Assembly: GCA_024648695.1 (NCBI GenBank)
Contig: JACAVV010000006.1
Location: 62,001 to 126,000 of the forward strand
Length of the DNA stretch: 64,000 nt
Source: Nitrospina sp.
GTDB lineage: Bacteria > Nitrospinota > Nitrospinia > Nitrospinales > JACRGP01
Direction: 5' to 3'
A program made the position numbers and the translations under genes. Within the stretch, counting starts at the first letter, position 1; the number at the start of each line of letters is the position of its first letter. The notes below the pieces were generated by a model. That model was not told the origin of the DNA. It did no database searches and saw only the letters and a list, made by a program, of their open reading frames with translations. Below are positions 12,856 through 20,482 of the stretch, in pieces.

Positions 12856-13510
12856 ATGACTTCAAAAAATGGATCTTAATTGTTTTGCTGAGTTCATTGA
12901 TCAATTTCAGATTCACTTAAAATAAGGCCCGGGCCACCCATGAAGGGATCAATCTCCTGATAGTCAACAGACTTTCGTTTACGCCCTTCAAGGCTTCGAA
13001 ATTCACAAAGGATTAAGGAATCCAGGGGCTTACCTCCTGATCCTGAATTCCACCGTTCGATTATACAGGCGAACCCTTATTCTGGGAACTGATGACAAAG
13101 AAGAATTCGAGAGATCTTTTGAAAACACCTTCCTTTTCCTGTTTTTTGACTTCGAAGAATTTTTAAACTATGTTCCTGTAAAAATGGTGTTGGATGATTT
13201 AATAAAATAACTGGAAAAGATTTTATTTATCAAGGAGGGCGATGAGCCTCCGGAGAACACTATTCCTGTTGAGGTTAAAACCATTCAGACTGAGAAGGGT
13301 TTGGATTATGATGGCGACGGCGATCTGGATTTATTCCTGGACAATGCTCCTGGTGGAGCCAACGCCAGCAGTCCTTCGGTCTTGTTTCCTGTTCTTTTCG
13401 ATTTCGATGATGACGGGGATTTTGATTTGAAGGCAACCAATGTGTCTGAGATAATTCCCGTTACGTTGCTGATACCTGCTTTCAAACACCCCCAAACTAA
13501 AGTCCACTAA
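12856..13510 (+). pseudogene. Decayed gene for a secreted protein with Asp-rich calcium-binding-like repeats
   Basis: A strong GGGAGG site precedes an ATG at 12856. After a one-base shift in the A-run the frame reads a signal-peptide-like WILIVLLSSLINF, then a TAA near 12918. A further shift near 12970 gives a long readable stretch (DSQQTFVYALQGFEIHKG to MVLDDLIK) that hits an in-frame TAA at 13208-13210. The same frame then continues with LDYDGDGDLDLFLDN and FDFDDDGDFDL, typical of VCBS/FG-GAP or EF-hand-like calcium loops, to a TAA at 13508. It looks like one secreted-protein gene broken by two frameshifts and two stops. Its last stop overlaps the dehydrogenase start (TAATG). Confidence 0.6.
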
Positions 13511-14781
13511 TGGGAATTTACCTCACATTACCAAAACGATTGAACGCTGAGATCCTTCAGCAAGATCCATCGAATGACCGGTTTTCGGCAGGAACGGAAT
13601 CTTCCCCGGAATCCCTGATTCAATTGGTGGATCCTGAAACTGGAAAAATTTGGGGATTTGTCGTCATCGATAATTCTTCATTAGGCCCGGGGTTGGGTGG
13701 CATCCGTATGGTACCGGATTTATCTTTGTGGGAAGTCCATCGGTTGGCTAAAACCATGACTCTGAAAAATGCCATTTCCTGTATTCCTTACGGTGGTGGA
13801 AAATCCGGCCTGATCCTGGACCCGTTCCAATTCATAGGCAAACCGGAAAAAAAAGCCCAGTTGATGTCAGCTTTTGCCCAGGCCATTTTTCCTCTGGATC
13901 GATACATTCCCGCTCCGGACATGGGAACAGATGAGAAAGACATTCAAACCATTCACGAAGTTTTTGAGGAACTCAGAGATCCTCAATCCCTCCCACGGGG
14001 TGTTGGCAGTCGTCCACCGGAAATGGGAGGCATTCCAATCGACCAGTGGGGCCTGACCGCTCATGGTTTGCTAGCGGCCGCTGAAGCGCTTCAACAACAC
14101 CAGCCAAAGTTTTCTTTAAAAAACTCTGATATCATCATTCAGGGTTTTGGCAATGTGGGCGCACCTGCCGCTTCAAAATTTGCAGAAAAGGGAGCTCGGA
14201 TTGTTGGTGTTTCTGATATCAATTGTGGGCTGTGGAACCCTGAAGGACTTGATATTGAAGAATTGCTGAGCGTAAGAAGCCTACCCAATGGCCTCGCCAA
14301 TTACAAAGGAATAACGGAGAAGTTATTTGTCGGCAGGAAACTGGACTGGCTTCTGGAAGCGCCGTGCGACCTGTTGATTCCGGCCGCGCGCCCCGATGCG
14401 ATTACCTCCAAAAACTCCGAACGTCTTCAATGTCGATTCATCCTGCAGGGCGCGAACACACCGAGCAATAAAATGACCGAGTATTTTCTTTACCACAGAC
14501 GTAATATTTTATCCTTGTCAGACTTTGTAGTGAATGTGGGCGGAGTTATTGGTTGTGCCGTGGAATTGCAAATGGAAAAAGACCCAGAGTACGAACAGAA
14601 GGTTAGAGCTCATAATGCAAAGGGATATCTTGAAAAACTTATTTTTAACACCGTTTCAAGAAATACCCTTGAGTTACTGGAACGCCTGAATGGATCAACG
14701 GACGATAAGATATTTCGCGAACTCGCAGTCGAACTCGCAGAAGAAAGGCTGTTCAACCCTGGGCCGGAAATCTGGCTTTAA
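13510..14781 (+). CDS. Glu/Leu/Phe/Val dehydrogenase family amino-acid dehydrogenase
   Basis: A 423-residue oxidoreductase interconverting an amino acid and its 2-oxo acid. The substrate domain shows the Lys-bearing GGGKSGLILDP and PAPDMGTDEKDI motifs; the Rossmann domain has GFGNVGAPAASKFAEKGA and a downstream VGVSD acidic residue that suggests NAD over NADP. FILQGANTPSNKMTEYFL and DFVVNVGGVIGCAVE are typical of the family. The substrate cannot be fixed by eye; glutamate or branched-chain amino acids are both possible. Translation probably relied on the frame now decayed upstream, since no ribosome site is seen and the start overlaps that stop. Confidence 0.9.
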   Translation: MGIYLTLPKRLNAEILQQDPSNDRFSAGTESSPESLIQLVDPETGKIWGFVVIDNSSLGPGLGGIRMVPDLSLWEVHRLAKTMTLKNAISCIPYGGGKSGLILDPFQFIGKPEKKAQLMSAFAQAIFPLDRYIPAPDMGTDEKDIQTIHEVFEELRDPQSLPRGVGSRPPEMGGIPIDQWGLTAHGLLAAAEALQQHQPKFSLKNSDIIIQGFGNVGAPAASKFAEKGARIVGVSDINCGLWNPEGLDIEELLSVRSLPNGLANYKGITEKLFVGRKLDWLLEAPCDLLIPAARPDAITSKNSERLQCRFILQGANTPSNKMTEYFLYHRRNILSLSDFVVNVGGVIGCAVELQMEKDPEYEQKVRAHNAKGYLEKLIFNTVSRNTLELLERLNGSTDDKIFRELAVELAEERLFNPGPEIWL

Positions 14782-14790
14782 ATTTATCTT

Positions 14791-15438
14791 ATGAAAAACA
14801 CACTCACTTTGGCCACATTGGCAACGGCCATTTTCTTCCTCTGGGAGTACCCGCTACTTTATCCCTTAAAGATTCTTGTCGTTTTTTTTCACGAATCCTC
14901 CCACGCCCTCATGGCACTTGTTACCGGAGGCGAAGTTAAGGAACTGGTTATCTCCCCGCAACAGGGAGGCCATGTCTTGTCACGGGGAGGTTCCCGTTTC
15001 CTGATTCTAAGCGCGGGATACCTTGGTTCCATGGCCTGGGGCGCTTTGATCTTTTTGCTCGCTGTGAAAACACGATGGGATCAATGGGTCATGATACTGT
15101 TAGGCATAATGATATTGACTATAGCAGTTTTGTTTGCCCGCAATATTTTCGGATTGGGATTCAGTCTGGCGGCGGGAACACTAATGATTTTTTCAGGTAT
15201 TAAACTTTCTGAAGCTATCAATGATTTCCTGTTAAAACTCATTGGCTTGACCAGCATGATCTATGTTCCCCAGGACATTTACGGCGATACCATAGCAAGA
15301 TCCTATTTAAGATCGGACGCCTATATGCTGGCAGAAGAAACCTTCGGCACCGCCTTTATGTGGGGGTGTGTTTGGATACTGGCAAGCATCCTCCTGATTA
15401 TTTTTTGTTTAAGTTTAAGCATAAATAAAAAAGCCTAA
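14791..15438 (+). CDS. M50B-like membrane metallopeptidase family protein
   Basis: 215 residues with at least five membrane segments. The HExxH zinc motif (HESSH, about residue 33) lies inside the first segment (ILVVFFHESSHALMALVTGG) as in peptidase M50B-like proteins, and ISPQQGGHVLSRGGSRFLILSAGYLGS is the conserved next block with the G-G-x-x-H pattern. Members are putative intramembrane proteases of unknown substrate. It follows the dehydrogenase by nine bases, suggesting co-transcription. Confidence 0.8.
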   Translation: MKNTLTLATLATAIFFLWEYPLLYPLKILVVFFHESSHALMALVTGGEVKELVISPQQGGHVLSRGGSRFLILSAGYLGSMAWGALIFLLAVKTRWDQWVMILLGIMILTIAVLFARNIFGLGFSLAAGTLMIFSGIKLSEAINDFLLKLIGLTSMIYVPQDIYGDTIARSYLRSDAYMLAEETFGTAFMWGCVWILASILLIIFCLSLSINKKA

Positions 15439-15702
15439 TCCCAAATTAAAAGCACTTCATTTTACAATTTACCCACTTTAAAACTGGTGTCATATCTGGA
15501 ATCCTGTTTATTTTGGGTTATTTATTTATCTATTTGTAAACATTAAGCTTCCTGATAATTAAATTACCTTTTCTCTCTGAGTAAAAAATATTGTCCAAAC
15601 CATCAAAAATTACTTGCAATATCAAAGTTAGTCTTTTAAAATCAATCTATTAGGAGCAAAAGCTAATCCGCAAATTAACTTAATAATTTTCTGCGATGAT
15701 TG

Positions 15703-15718
15703 TGGCATGGTAATTGCT
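15703..15718 (+). promoter_or_regulatory. Sigma54 (RpoN) promoter
   Basis: TGGCATG, GTAA, TTGCT fit the -24/-12 consensus with exactly ten bases between the invariant GG (15704-15705) and GC (15716-15717). It lies in a non-coding region, in the sense of the downstream genes. Transcription would start near 15729. The upstream activator site is not identifiable by eye. Confidence 0.7.
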
Positions 15719-15728
15719 CTTAATGAGA

Positions 15729-15792
15729 TGTGCTTTTTCATTTACATAGTTTCCTCCCTTAGGCCCCCGGGCGACCGGGGGCCCCTCCTTTT
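15729..15792 (+). ncRNA. Candidate sigma54-dependent small RNA
   Basis: From the predicted sigma54 start site the transcript would run about 33 bases, then form a nine-base perfect stem GGCCCCCGG/CCGGGGGCC with a GCGA (GNRA) loop at 15762-15783, followed by CCTCCTTTT. It contains two C-rich, ribosome-site-complementary stretches (TTCCTCCC at 15750-15757 and CCCCTCC near 15782-15788), the kind of motif with which some small RNAs block translation. The T-tract is short and five bases from the stem, so termination may be partial and the element may instead be a leader of the protease gene. Confidence 0.4.
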
Positions 15793-15876
15793 GCAAGTCC
15801 TTAAACTTCAAAAATCATTCTGTTAATTTGTTATAATGCAGTTCCTTATAATCATTCATTTCCTTTAGGATAGAAA

Positions 15877-17658
15877 ATGCCCTATTCCAGAAATCTGTCT
15901 TATCCCATATTGATTTTTTCTATATTCTTTATTTTTAATTTAATTGTATCCCCTGCATTTGGTTCAGAACAACCCAAGCCCAGGAGAATTTTTCTGGAAT
16001 CTAGCAATCCATCCAGTCAGACTGATTCTTTTCAGACTAATACACTTTGGCAATTGAAGAGTCGAAATGTACAGGTTGACTTTGATCATCTATCCCATTT
16101 AGCTTCTTATGATACTCTTTCTCTGAATCTGTTCCCTGATGTGGTTTTGAAAGCAAAAAAGGATCGCGTGTTCAATAACACATCCGGTAGCCAGTCCTGG
16201 GTCGGACATATTGCGGACCAACCTCTGAGCACCGTTTCCCTGGTTTTGAGCAATGATATTTTGGTTGGTAATATTGTTTCCCCAGAGTTTAGTTATCAGA
16301 TTAGAAAAAATCTCGAAGGTGGACATATCGTTCATCAGATCAACCCTGGACAATTTCCTCCCGGTGCAGACCCCATTCCGGTTAACCTTTCAGACCAGAG
16401 GGGCTCAAGTTTATCCCTGAATCCTCTGCATGATGATGGTTCGGTTGTGGATGTTCTGGTGATCTACTCCGATGATGCCCGTGATGCGGCTGGTGGTACA
16501 GCCACCATTGAGACCCTGATCGATCTTGCAGAAACGGAGACAAATACATCCTACACCAATAGCGGAATCAACCACACGATTCGCATTGTTCATCGCGAGG
16601 AAATCTCCTATGACGAATCAGGATTTACCTTTCAAAAGGCACTTGATGATGTAACAGACGGCGTCGAAATTCCTCAGGCGCAAACCCTTCGTGAACAACA
16701 TGGGGCCGACCTGGTCTCATTTTGGGTTGCGGGCGATAATACCTTTTGCGGATTGGCCTGGTTGATGACATCGGTTTCTTCTACTTTCGCTCCTAATGGC
16801 TATTCCGTAGTGGCCCAGACTTGTGCCACAGGGAATTTTTCCTTTGGGCATGAAATCGGACATAACAGCGGAGCCCGTCATGACCGGGCAAGTGATCCTA
16901 CCGACGGGGCTCCTTTTGACTTCAATCATGGGTTTGTCGACAGTCCTAATAATTTTAAGACAATCATGGGCATTGGAAGCGAAACAAGAGTTCAGTTTTA
17001 TTCCAACCCGGAAGTCAATTTCAGCGGAAACCCAACAGGGGTTGCGGAAGGACAGACCAATGCGGCGGACAACAGAAAAACCCTGAATCAAACGGCTTTA
17101 ACGGTTGCCCAATTTCGTGATTCGGTAGCCTCGGTGGGTTCTTCTGAGCCTATTTTTGAAGTCCCAAGTTCAGAGAGTATATTCTCGCCCTTTTGGCAAT
17201 CAGATTTGTTAGCCTATTCCTTTATTTCCGTTTCACACCCCTCCCTCTCTGCCATGAATTCCCAAATTGGGATGGTGGTAAAGGCAATAGATAATGATGG
17301 CAATTCTCTTTATGGAAGCACTGAATTTACAATTCAATCCTCACAAACGGAGCGCATATTCATTGTAGCCACGAATAATTTATTTATAAATCCAACCGTT
17401 GTACCCAATGGCCATTTCATAACTGGAACTCAATCCAGTAGACATGGGCAACTATTGATTCTTCCCAAAGCCAGCCATCCTAAATTACTTGCCGGCAATT
17501 CAAATAGCAAAGGTAGAGGTTTTCCGGATATCACCATGTTACATTTTTGGGGGGCGATAGTGGTTCAAGCCACTAGTACCGGGTTCGCTATGGAGTTTAT
17601 TGGCGATAATCACGATTCAAATGCGCTAATCAATTCCCGGTTTTCAGGAGTAAATTAG
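15877..17658 (+). CDS. Secreted reprolysin-like zinc metalloprotease
   Basis: 593 residues with an N-terminal signal peptide (YPILIFSIFFIFNLIVSPAFG). The catalytic site HEIGHNSGARH (residues 325-335) is the HExxHxxGxxH zinc motif of metzincins such as the reprolysin/M12B-like group; NFSFGHEIGH and the downstream MGIG Met-turn stretch support this. A propeptide-like region of about 200 residues precedes it. The last 140 residues (from SPFWQSDLLAYSFISVSHPS) form a domain shared with the next protein, ending FIGDNHDSN. An AGGA site precedes the ATG. The role is probably extracellular proteolysis; the substrate is unknown. Confidence 0.85.
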   Translation: MPYSRNLSYPILIFSIFFIFNLIVSPAFGSEQPKPRRIFLESSNPSSQTDSFQTNTLWQLKSRNVQVDFDHLSHLASYDTLSLNLFPDVVLKAKKDRVFNNTSGSQSWVGHIADQPLSTVSLVLSNDILVGNIVSPEFSYQIRKNLEGGHIVHQINPGQFPPGADPIPVNLSDQRGSSLSLNPLHDDGSVVDVLVIYSDDARDAAGGTATIETLIDLAETETNTSYTNSGINHTIRIVHREEISYDESGFTFQKALDDVTDGVEIPQAQTLREQHGADLVSFWVAGDNTFCGLAWLMTSVSSTFAPNGYSVVAQTCATGNFSFGHEIGHNSGARHDRASDPTDGAPFDFNHGFVDSPNNFKTIMGIGSETRVQFYSNPEVNFSGNPTGVAEGQTNAADNRKTLNQTALTVAQFRDSVASVGSSEPIFEVPSSESIFSPFWQSDLLAYSFISVSHPSLSAMNSQIGMVVKAIDNDGNSLYGSTEFTIQSSQTERIFIVATNNLFINPTVVPNGHFITGTQSSRHGQLLILPKASHPKLLAGNSNSKGRGFPDITMLHFWGAIVVQATSTGFAMEFIGDNHDSNALINSRFSGVN

Positions 17659-17740
17659 TAGTAGCCAATAAAACCATATTGAGGGATATAATTAATCATA
17701 TGGGACGCCGTTGGGTTCCATTATTTTCCAGGACAGGATT

Positions 17741-20482
17741 ATGAAATTGATGTCAGCTCAAAGCAAAACTCTAAAAATATTTGTTCTTTTTGGTTTATAT
17801 TTTCTTTTGCTAACAGCCTATCCTCAATTTGCAGAGGGGAATTTGCCATCACCCTTATTCCTGGAGACATCGACTCAAGTAGACCCTCCTAAAGCCACAG
17901 ATCCGTCTGTCATCAGAAGTCGCGTTGTTGATATTAATTTCAATAATGTGATTCAAGCCGATTCCTTACCAAATCAGGGACGGCCTCAGGGAAACCCTAA
18001 AATCCTGTTAAACCTGTTTTCGGACGTCCAGTTGACAGCTGTTCTCGACCAGATTAAGAAAAACTCTTCCGGAAGTTTATCCTGGGTCGGGCATATCCTG
18101 GATGAAAAGTTTTCCTCGGTTTCTCTAGTAGTTAATGGAGACTTATTGATCGGCAATATCCATCGTTTGGGACAATCCTTTCAAATCAGAAATATTGGTG
18201 GCGATAACCATGTGATTCGTGAAATGGACTTGTCCCATTTACCGCCAGGAGGGGAACCCCTGTCGGTAAGAAACATCATGGGAGACGTTCAGCCCGATTT
18301 CCGGCCGCAAGTGGATGACGGATCGCAAGTGGACGTTTTGGTTTTGTATACTGCCGATGCACGAAATGCGGCTGGGGGTACGGCAAGTATTGAAGCTTTG
18401 ATTGACTTGGCTGAGACAGAAACCAACACGTCTTATTCCAATAGCGGCATCAACCATGTCATTAGCATCGTTCACAGGGAAGAGGTGGTTTACAATGAAG
18501 GAAATAATTCATTTCAGACAATACTGGAGGACCTTACTCCGGCAGATTCTTTTGGGAATGGGAATATACCGGTAGCCCAAACCTTGAGAGACACTCACGG
18601 AGCAGATCTGGTTTCACTTTGGATCGAAGGTAATGGGTCCATATGCGGATTGGCCTGGCTGATGGATTCCCTGGGTGGTTTTGAAAGTTTCGGATACTCC
18701 ATAGTTGCTCAGGATTGCGCCACAGGAAACTTTTCTTTCGGTCACGAATTGGGACATAACAGCGGCCTTCGCCATAACCGGGAAAGTGACAACCTGGATG
18801 GCCCTTTCACCTACAATCACGGTTTACTGGATAATGCTAATAGCTTTCGAACGATCATGGCCATTGGTGCCAATCAACGGATTCAGTATTATTCCAATCC
18901 CGACGTTAATTTCAACGGCAACCCCACCGGAATAGCTATCACTGAATCCGATTCCGCGCACAACGCCATGGCCCTCAACGAAACGGTAAACGATGTGGCA
19001 AATTTCCGCGAATCGGTGAACAATGGAGGGAGCAACACCGTTACCGGCTTATGGGAAGGGACCGGTTCGGATGGTTCAGCTCTAACATTTTCCCTCGTGC
19101 AATCCGGTACCTCCTTTACAGGTACGGGAAGCACGGTATTTCAAAATATTTCTGGCAATTTTTCCATTTCGGGGACTATCACCGGAACCTCTTTTTCAGG
19201 GACTGTCACTGGAACCAGCAGTAATTGTTCTGCTCTCAATTTAACGGTTTCAGGTACCTTTAATGCCACGACTATGTCCGGTAGCCTGAACGGAACCGAA
19301 TGTTCTGGGCAGGCAGACAACATTACCTTTAACGCAACTAAAGATGACACCGGAAGCACGACCCTCAGCATTGTCTCAGCACCCTCAGGAACACCGAATC
19401 CGGCCGAATCGGAACAAGTCGTCAATTTAAGTGTGGAAGCCTTCGATACGGGAGGAGGAACCATCACCTATGCCTGGGACGCTACATGTCAAACTTTGGG
19501 TTCCAATGGAGTTTTTAATAGCAAAACGGTACAAAATCCCATCTGGACAGCCCCGACAAATATAACGGGAAACCAGCAGTCCTGTACCATATCCATCACT
19601 GTGACCAACACCAATACAGGTTCTGCATCAGATTCATTTTCCCAGATGGTCAATGCCGTGGAGGACGAAACGGTATTCACTTCACCCCCTGCATCCAATA
19701 AAAGTTTCCTTAATCCCGGCGAAGCGGTGAATCTTACTTCCACGGCCACGCATTCTACTAACGCAACATTAAGTTACGCATGGACCTCTACCTGCCCAAA
19801 TCTCAGTTCCAATGGGTCCTTTGGAAATGCCAGTTCTCCCAACACCACCTGGCAGGCCCCAAGTCACAATACCGGATTCACGCAGGCCTGCGACCTGAAG
19901 TTAACCGTAAGCGCCACTGATACCGACGATCTGGTGGGAACTGTTTCTCAGTTCGTAAAATCAAGTGCCGATGGTGTGTTTACCAGAGAAGGGTTTGGAT
20001 TCATTGTGTCACCCTTTTGGCAGGCGGATGACTCCACCTATACCTTCATGTCAATTTCTCACCCTTCCCAATCAGGAATGAATTCCGAAATTGGACTCAT
20101 CATCAACGCCGTGCTCAACGACAATGAAACTCTGTTTGGCTCCACCGAATTCACTATACGATCGTCAAGCACTCAAAGAGTCTTTATTGTTGGAACCAAT
20201 AATCCCATACTCAACCCAACAACCCTGCCAGATTTTAAATTCGTCGCAGGGACAACCGGAGGCGCTCACGGTCAATTGCTGATCAAACCCAAAGCCAGCA
20301 ATCCGGAACAGTTAGCAGGCAACGCTAGCAGTCCCGGACGCGGCTATCCCGACATCACCCAATTGAACGTTTGGGGAGCCATCGTCGTGCAATCCACCAG
20401 CACCGGTTTCGCCATGGAATTCATAGGGGACAACCAGGATTCCCGCGCCGTTAATACGCCTAATGTTTCGGGAACAAATTAA
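17741..20482 (+). CDS. Secreted reprolysin-like zinc metalloprotease with Ig-like inserts (paralogue)
   Basis: 913 residues from the ATG at 17741 (AGGA sites at 17729 and 17735), with signal peptide (IFVLFGLYFLLLTAYPQFAEG). It parallels the previous protein: pro-region, zinc motif HELGHNSGLRH (residues 335-345), then the shared C-terminal domain SPFWQADDSTYTFMSISHPS to FIGDNQDSR. Between them sits about 300 extra residues: a Ser/Thr/Gly-rich beta domain (TGLWEGTGSDGS..., with FSGTVTGTSSNCSALNL) and two Ig/PKD-like modules containing paired Cys (TYAWDATCQTL, SYAWTSTCPNL). The pair is a tandem duplication followed by domain insertion or loss. Confidence 0.85.
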   Translation: MKLMSAQSKTLKIFVLFGLYFLLLTAYPQFAEGNLPSPLFLETSTQVDPPKATDPSVIRSRVVDINFNNVIQADSLPNQGRPQGNPKILLNLFSDVQLTAVLDQIKKNSSGSLSWVGHILDEKFSSVSLVVNGDLLIGNIHRLGQSFQIRNIGGDNHVIREMDLSHLPPGGEPLSVRNIMGDVQPDFRPQVDDGSQVDVLVLYTADARNAAGGTASIEALIDLAETETNTSYSNSGINHVISIVHREEVVYNEGNNSFQTILEDLTPADSFGNGNIPVAQTLRDTHGADLVSLWIEGNGSICGLAWLMDSLGGFESFGYSIVAQDCATGNFSFGHELGHNSGLRHNRESDNLDGPFTYNHGLLDNANSFRTIMAIGANQRIQYYSNPDVNFNGNPTGIAITESDSAHNAMALNETVNDVANFRESVNNGGSNTVTGLWEGTGSDGSALTFSLVQSGTSFTGTGSTVFQNISGNFSISGTITGTSFSGTVTGTSSNCSALNLTVSGTFNATTMSGSLNGTECSGQADNITFNATKDDTGSTTLSIVSAPSGTPNPAESEQVVNLSVEAFDTGGGTITYAWDATCQTLGSNGVFNSKTVQNPIWTAPTNITGNQQSCTISITVTNTNTGSASDSFSQMVNAVEDETVFTSPPASNKSFLNPGEAVNLTSTATHSTNATLSYAWTSTCPNLSSNGSFGNASSPNTTWQAPSHNTGFTQACDLKLTVSATDTDDLVGTVSQFVKSSADGVFTREGFGFIVSPFWQADDSTYTFMSISHPSQSGMNSEIGLIINAVLNDNETLFGSTEFTIRSSSTQRVFIVGTNNPILNPTTLPDFKFVAGTTGGAHGQLLIKPKASNPEQLAGNASSPGRGYPDITQLNVWGAIVVQSTSTGFAMEFIGDNQDSRAVNTPNVSGTN

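Follow-up and report, generated by a model that had tools for sequence, protein, structure and literature searches.

A candidate sigma-54-driven, terminated small RNA with an anti-Shine-Dalgarno motif in a Nitrospina genome

Does a compact G+C-rich element between two peptidase genes of a Nitrospina species specify a small RNA controlled by sigma-54, or is it the terminator of the operon that precedes it? The element lies in a 438-bp intergenic region (32% G+C) of the 64-kb stretch of DNA that was analysed, hereafter called the window. We consider the chances about even that it is a stand-alone gene for a small RNA of the anti-Shine-Dalgarno type, transcribed from a sigma-54 promoter, ended by a terminator and resembling MmgR in its action.

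The element and its surroundings

The intergenic region is bounded upstream by a gene for an M50B-like peptidase (Peptidase_M50B; 14791-15438, plus strand), which is itself preceded by a Glu/Leu/Phe/Val dehydrogenase gene (13510-14781), and downstream by a gene for a reprolysin-like metalloprotease (15877-17658, plus strand). Positions 15750-15790 form an island of 73% G+C, compared with 27-29% in both flanks. A match to a sigma-54-type -24/-12 promoter, TGGCATGGTAATTGCT, is located at 15703-15718 on the plus strand and carries GG (15704-15705) and GC (15716-15717) separated by ten nucleotides, with one mismatch to TGGCACGNNNNTTGCW. After a spacer of 43 bases comes a perfect stem-loop (15762-15783, plus strand), whose arms GGCCCCCGG (15762-15770) and CCGGGGGCC (15775-15783) form nine G-C pairs closed by a GCGA loop of the GNRA type. 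Two CCTCC-type segments flank this stem. The first, TTTCCTCCC at 15750-15758, would be read in RNA as the anti-Shine-Dalgarno motif UUUCCUCCC, which is predicted to be 96-100% unpaired. The second, CCTCCTTTT at 15784-15792 (CCUCCUUUU in RNA), combines a short U tract with another CCUCC segment. An earlier, sequence-only reading of this locus had described the promoter-like site with its GG-N10-GC spacing, the nine-base stem with a GNRA loop and the two CCTCC-type segments, and all of these parts were recovered as described. It had also pointed out that no protein gene follows immediately, and indeed the nearest downstream gene, on the same strand, starts only at 15877, 93 bases beyond the hairpin.

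The spacing rule for sigma-54 transcription starts would place the 5' end of an RNA at 15728-15730, 12 bases past the -12 element, and the terminator would define its 3' end, yielding a predicted small RNA of about 65 nucleotides (15728-15792, plus strand). When folded from this inferred start, the RNA is predicted to form a marginal 5' hairpin (AUGUG...UACAU, 15728-15747) in which five base pairs are possible at only -0.3 kcal/mol, followed by the exposed UUUCCUCCC and the terminator. No alternative fold was predicted.

The metalloprotease gene at 15877-17658 is adjacent to a related one at 17711-20482. Both encode reprolysin-like secreted proteins with a common N-terminal catalytic and a common C-terminal region, and the pair is probably the product of a tandem duplication.

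Sigma-54 regulation and the strength of the individual parts

Sigma-54 regulation is real in the host genome, as it encodes RpoN and about 18 proteins with a strong sigma-54 activator domain, and carries 35 near-consensus sigma-54 sites compared with 17 for a reversed-pattern control. Many of these sites are intergenic and precede genes such as those for a pilin-like and a flagellar rod-like protein (names that reflect our reading of the translations). An NtrC-like protein scores 540 bits, just under the cut-off of 558.6. No convincing NtrC- or NifA-type activator site was found upstream of TGGCATGGTAATTGCT, and the nitrogen control proposed for the element in the earlier reading has only analogy behind it. 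No match to Hfq was detected in the host genome, which is 97% complete.

By contrast with this genome-wide signal, the promoter match in the window is not significant alone, since about 0.7 scores equal to or better than it are expected per random 64 kb. Likewise, a degenerate sigma-54 consensus with one mismatch was found twice in the window against an expectation of 1.88. We built a matrix from 14 sites of the host genome, which we had picked for their position ahead of genes or outside them and which range from 12.1 to 29.8 bits when each is left out in turn. The window site, at 14.1 bits, falls near the bottom of that range. Almost every credible sigma-54 site of the genome is stronger, and the window site has neither the T tract nor the CAC seen in the better ones.

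The stem does stand out as exceptional, and an intrinsic terminator is its most natural reading. None of the shuffled versions of the window matched its 22-mer within three mismatches, and only two perfect 9-bp stems with at least seven G/C positions occur in the 64 kb, including the one at 15762-15783. The hairpin is the only terminator-like site in 15300-16000, and a terminator scan found none between the end of the M50B-like gene (15438) and 15762. Its fold energy is only moderately below that of shuffled sequences (z about -1.5 to -1.9). The anti-Shine-Dalgarno motif was picked after the element had been seen, and therefore the joint coincidence of promoter, motif and stem gives no clean probability.

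Other sigma-54 sites of the host genome were noted along the way. Two of them (L018, G000:C1:238852-238867, minus strand; L044, G000:C34:183461-183476, plus strand) lie 160-255 bases ahead of genes for small secreted TPR-like proteins that look alike (MKKLIVTSVALVCLVFAQ..., MKKFQALVVATIFFLIP...). Two strong intergenic sites, TTTGGCACGGGGTTTGCT (L019 1500-1605, G000:C53 from 117511 on) and TTTTGGCACAGGACTTGCT (L045 1520-1412, minus strand, G000:C39 from 18274 down), are each followed by a near-identical RNA-like sequence, TGTCATTTTTTACCCCTGTTCCGTGGGAT.TTTGAGGARCCGGAA...TTCCGGTTCCTCA, with a terminator-like hairpin of 13-14 bp. These two sequences are paralogous and devoid of a long ORF. They have no Rfam match at an E-value of 1, and their 21-mer core was found in none of the 76 further genomes of the phylum (at most two mismatches allowed). 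They are stronger candidates for sigma-54-controlled small RNAs than the window element.

Small RNAs of this general design are known elsewhere. Qrr, GlmY/GlmZ and CrcZ/CrcY resemble the predicted window RNA in that a small RNA is located behind a -24/-12 promoter gated by an activator. We know of no sequence relation between them and the window RNA, and their targets and partner proteins differ. The sigma-54-type promoters of CrcZ/CrcY have been reviewed (PMC8401924). The rhizobial RNAs of the AbcR/NfeR1 type share with the window RNA an unpaired, CU-rich motif directed against ribosome-binding sites (PMC7143759), but they are longer, form several stem-loops and are listed mainly with RpoD promoters; NfeR1 is without a sigma-54 signature (PMC10746234).

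Likeness to the MmgR/suhB RNAs

The closest comparison is with the MmgR/suhB RNAs of alphaproteobacteria (RF00519, alpha-r8 family). The window element aligns to this model over its full length (1-77) but scores 25 bits, below the threshold of 41, and for this reason we do not file it as a member of the family. Its E-value of 0.0015-0.0055 should not be taken at face value, because plain terminators score alike or higher: one elsewhere in the host genome reaches 31.2 bits, and several others exceed 20. What is specific to the likeness, at the level of sequence, is GUUUCCUCCCU at 15749-15759, an exact 11-nt match to the RF00519 consensus that is positioned as in the family, predicted to be 90-100% unpaired and followed directly on its 3' side by an intrinsic terminator with a short U tail.

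The window element and the MmgR/suhB RNAs thus have in common the order of a sigma-54 site, an unpaired GUUUCCUCCCU and a GC-rich terminator, the sigma-54 site being a part of the family layout that we observed in the Methylobacterium loci described below. Neither is tied to neighbouring genes, and the marginal 5' hairpin predicted for the window RNA may correspond to the short 5' helix of the family. The suhB motif has been described as unstructured except for a short 5' helix and the terminator, with a promoter and a terminator flanking its conserved part and no link to adjacent genes (PMC1273637). In S. meliloti, NtrC activates MmgR, which has been tabulated under both RpoD and RpoN promoters (PMC7143759); another review places the MmgR regulatory dyad between the -35 and -10 boxes (PMC8401924). 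The window element differs in its shorter linker between motif and stem, its poor U tail and its lack of paralogues. In addition, the genome lies outside the alphaproteobacterial matches examined, and no Hfq was found in it, whereas MmgR is Hfq-dependent.

As an independent test of the layout, about 85,000 genomes were scanned for a sigma-54 site with TTTCCTCCC 20-42 nt after it, which gave 76 loci. Nine of them are from Methylobacterium (L078, L087, L088, L090, L092, L100, L106, L139 and L141) and share an identical 50-base span and a GC-rich hairpin; a 13-nt segment, GGCGTTTCCTCCC, is conserved among them and the hairpin varies. The distance from the near-consensus sigma-54 site to the MmgR-family-like RNA behind it is constant, and five of the nine pass the RF00519 threshold. 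Judged by sequence, the layout of the window element is therefore one that is already known, in which Methylobacterium genes of the MmgR family appear directly behind sigma-54 sites. From these loci, a direct sigma-54 promoter would seem to be a regular component of such genes in Methylobacterium. Among the other loci of the scan, just a few have a stem of at least 8 bp directly after the motif.

With a second RNA model, built from the nine Methylobacterium sequences, the window element is the highest-scoring match in the host genome (19.6 bits, with 13.8 for the next match). This score is no proof of descent, because elsewhere in the phylum terminators and coding DNA reach equal or higher values. 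Two genomes of one genus (L152 1501-1556 and L149 1501-1557) each have a GC hairpin, with similar ...GGGGCC tails, beside sequence that contains AAAGGAGGTGATCC, the complement of the 16S rRNA 3' end; this hairpin has the look of a terminator conserved close to an rRNA operon.

A BLAST search of 61 genomes with the 241-bp region matched only its own genome. In the order, the sigma-54 plus TTTCCTCCC pattern has four other matches, none of which is followed by a GC hairpin. The pattern TTTCCTCC...CCTCCTTT has other matches in the phylum that lack the layout (its control is uninformative, as the pattern reads the same backwards and the forward and control columns are identical). The element is not beside the M50B orthologues of two relatives, a query with the dehydrogenase in named genomes returned no relatives, and a plasmid collection gave only irrelevant short AT-rich matches. 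The test of conservation proposed in the sequence-only reading accordingly came out negative in 61-77 relatives, yet it is a weak test: the genus is represented by a single genome in the comparison set, and the two clear small-RNA-like paralogues of the host genome are just as unconserved, so absence in relatives says little.

Alternative readings and the proposed small RNA

The main and simplest alternative is that the hairpin is the intrinsic terminator of the dehydrogenase-M50B operon and insulates the protease gene, in which case the -24/-12 match and UUUCCUCCC would be there by chance. This reading accounts for the hairpin being the sole terminator-like site between the two genes, for a promoter match at chance level, for other terminators of the genome and phylum performing as well on the RNA models, and for the lack of conservation. 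However, 324 bases after the last gene is a long distance for an operon terminator. Moreover, it is rare for a 9-nt anti-Shine-Dalgarno motif to adjoin such a stem and for a near-consensus sigma-54 site to be suitably spaced from them as well, and the identical conjunction marks real MmgR-family RNAs. We regard the operon terminator as a serious possibility, though a somewhat doubtful one.

The earlier reading had also offered a conditional leader of the metalloproteases, in which case a structured leader under sigma-54 control would regulate the gene at 15877. The common strand and the 93 bases between hairpin and start codon would suit such a leader, but transcription would end at a terminator-like hairpin with a U tail. 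The protease gene also has a TATAAT (15832-15837) and an AGGA ribosome site of its own, both 3' of the hairpin; the hairpin does not extend to that ribosome site, and no alternative fold was predicted. We therefore consider a leader very improbable. Least probable of all is a feature on the minus strand, where GGGAGGAAAC would be the ribosome site of a 37-codon peptide (MKKHISLRAITMPQSSQ...) or of a start-stop ATGTAA, the hairpin lying upstream. GGGAGG does precede ATGTAA and ATGAAA by 4-11 bases on that strand, but no minus-strand promoter-like site is close by, the 241-bp region has no homologue in relatives, and a stop directly follows the first ATG.

The small RNA suggested by the sequence-only reading is plausible, given the same layout in Methylobacterium MmgR-family genes and a host genome with RpoN and many activators, and its transcription is predicted. 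The sequence parts themselves, RpoN and the activators, the computed exposure of the motif and the matching order of parts in Methylobacterium are observed; transcription, sigma-54 dependence, an inducing signal and target pairing are inferred. Under the small-RNA model, transcription from 15703-15718 would need an activator, perhaps one of the roughly 18 in the genome, and the transcript would end at the GC hairpin. The motif UUUCCUCCC would be exposed between the weak 5' hairpin and the terminator, where it could pair in trans with GGGAGGAAA-type ribosome-binding sites of mRNAs and lower their translation. Repression by base pairing in trans would be the obvious mechanism for a motif that complements strong ribosome-binding sites. 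This is also the mode of action proposed for the MmgR/suhB-type RNAs of alphaproteobacteria. With no Hfq match in the genome, the RNA may use another chaperone or none.

A broader proposal is that the element represents an MmgR-type, sigma-54-gated anti-Shine-Dalgarno RNA outside the alphaproteobacteria that operates without Hfq, and that it belongs, together with the C53 and C39 paralogues, to several sigma-54-driven small RNAs that have gone unrecognised in this lineage. We consider this broader proposal unlikely as a whole. If the window RNA is transcribed, the sigma-54-gated anti-Shine-Dalgarno type of RNA would extend to a genome in which no Hfq was detected, and the MmgR layout would recur, by descent or by convergence, beyond its known loci.
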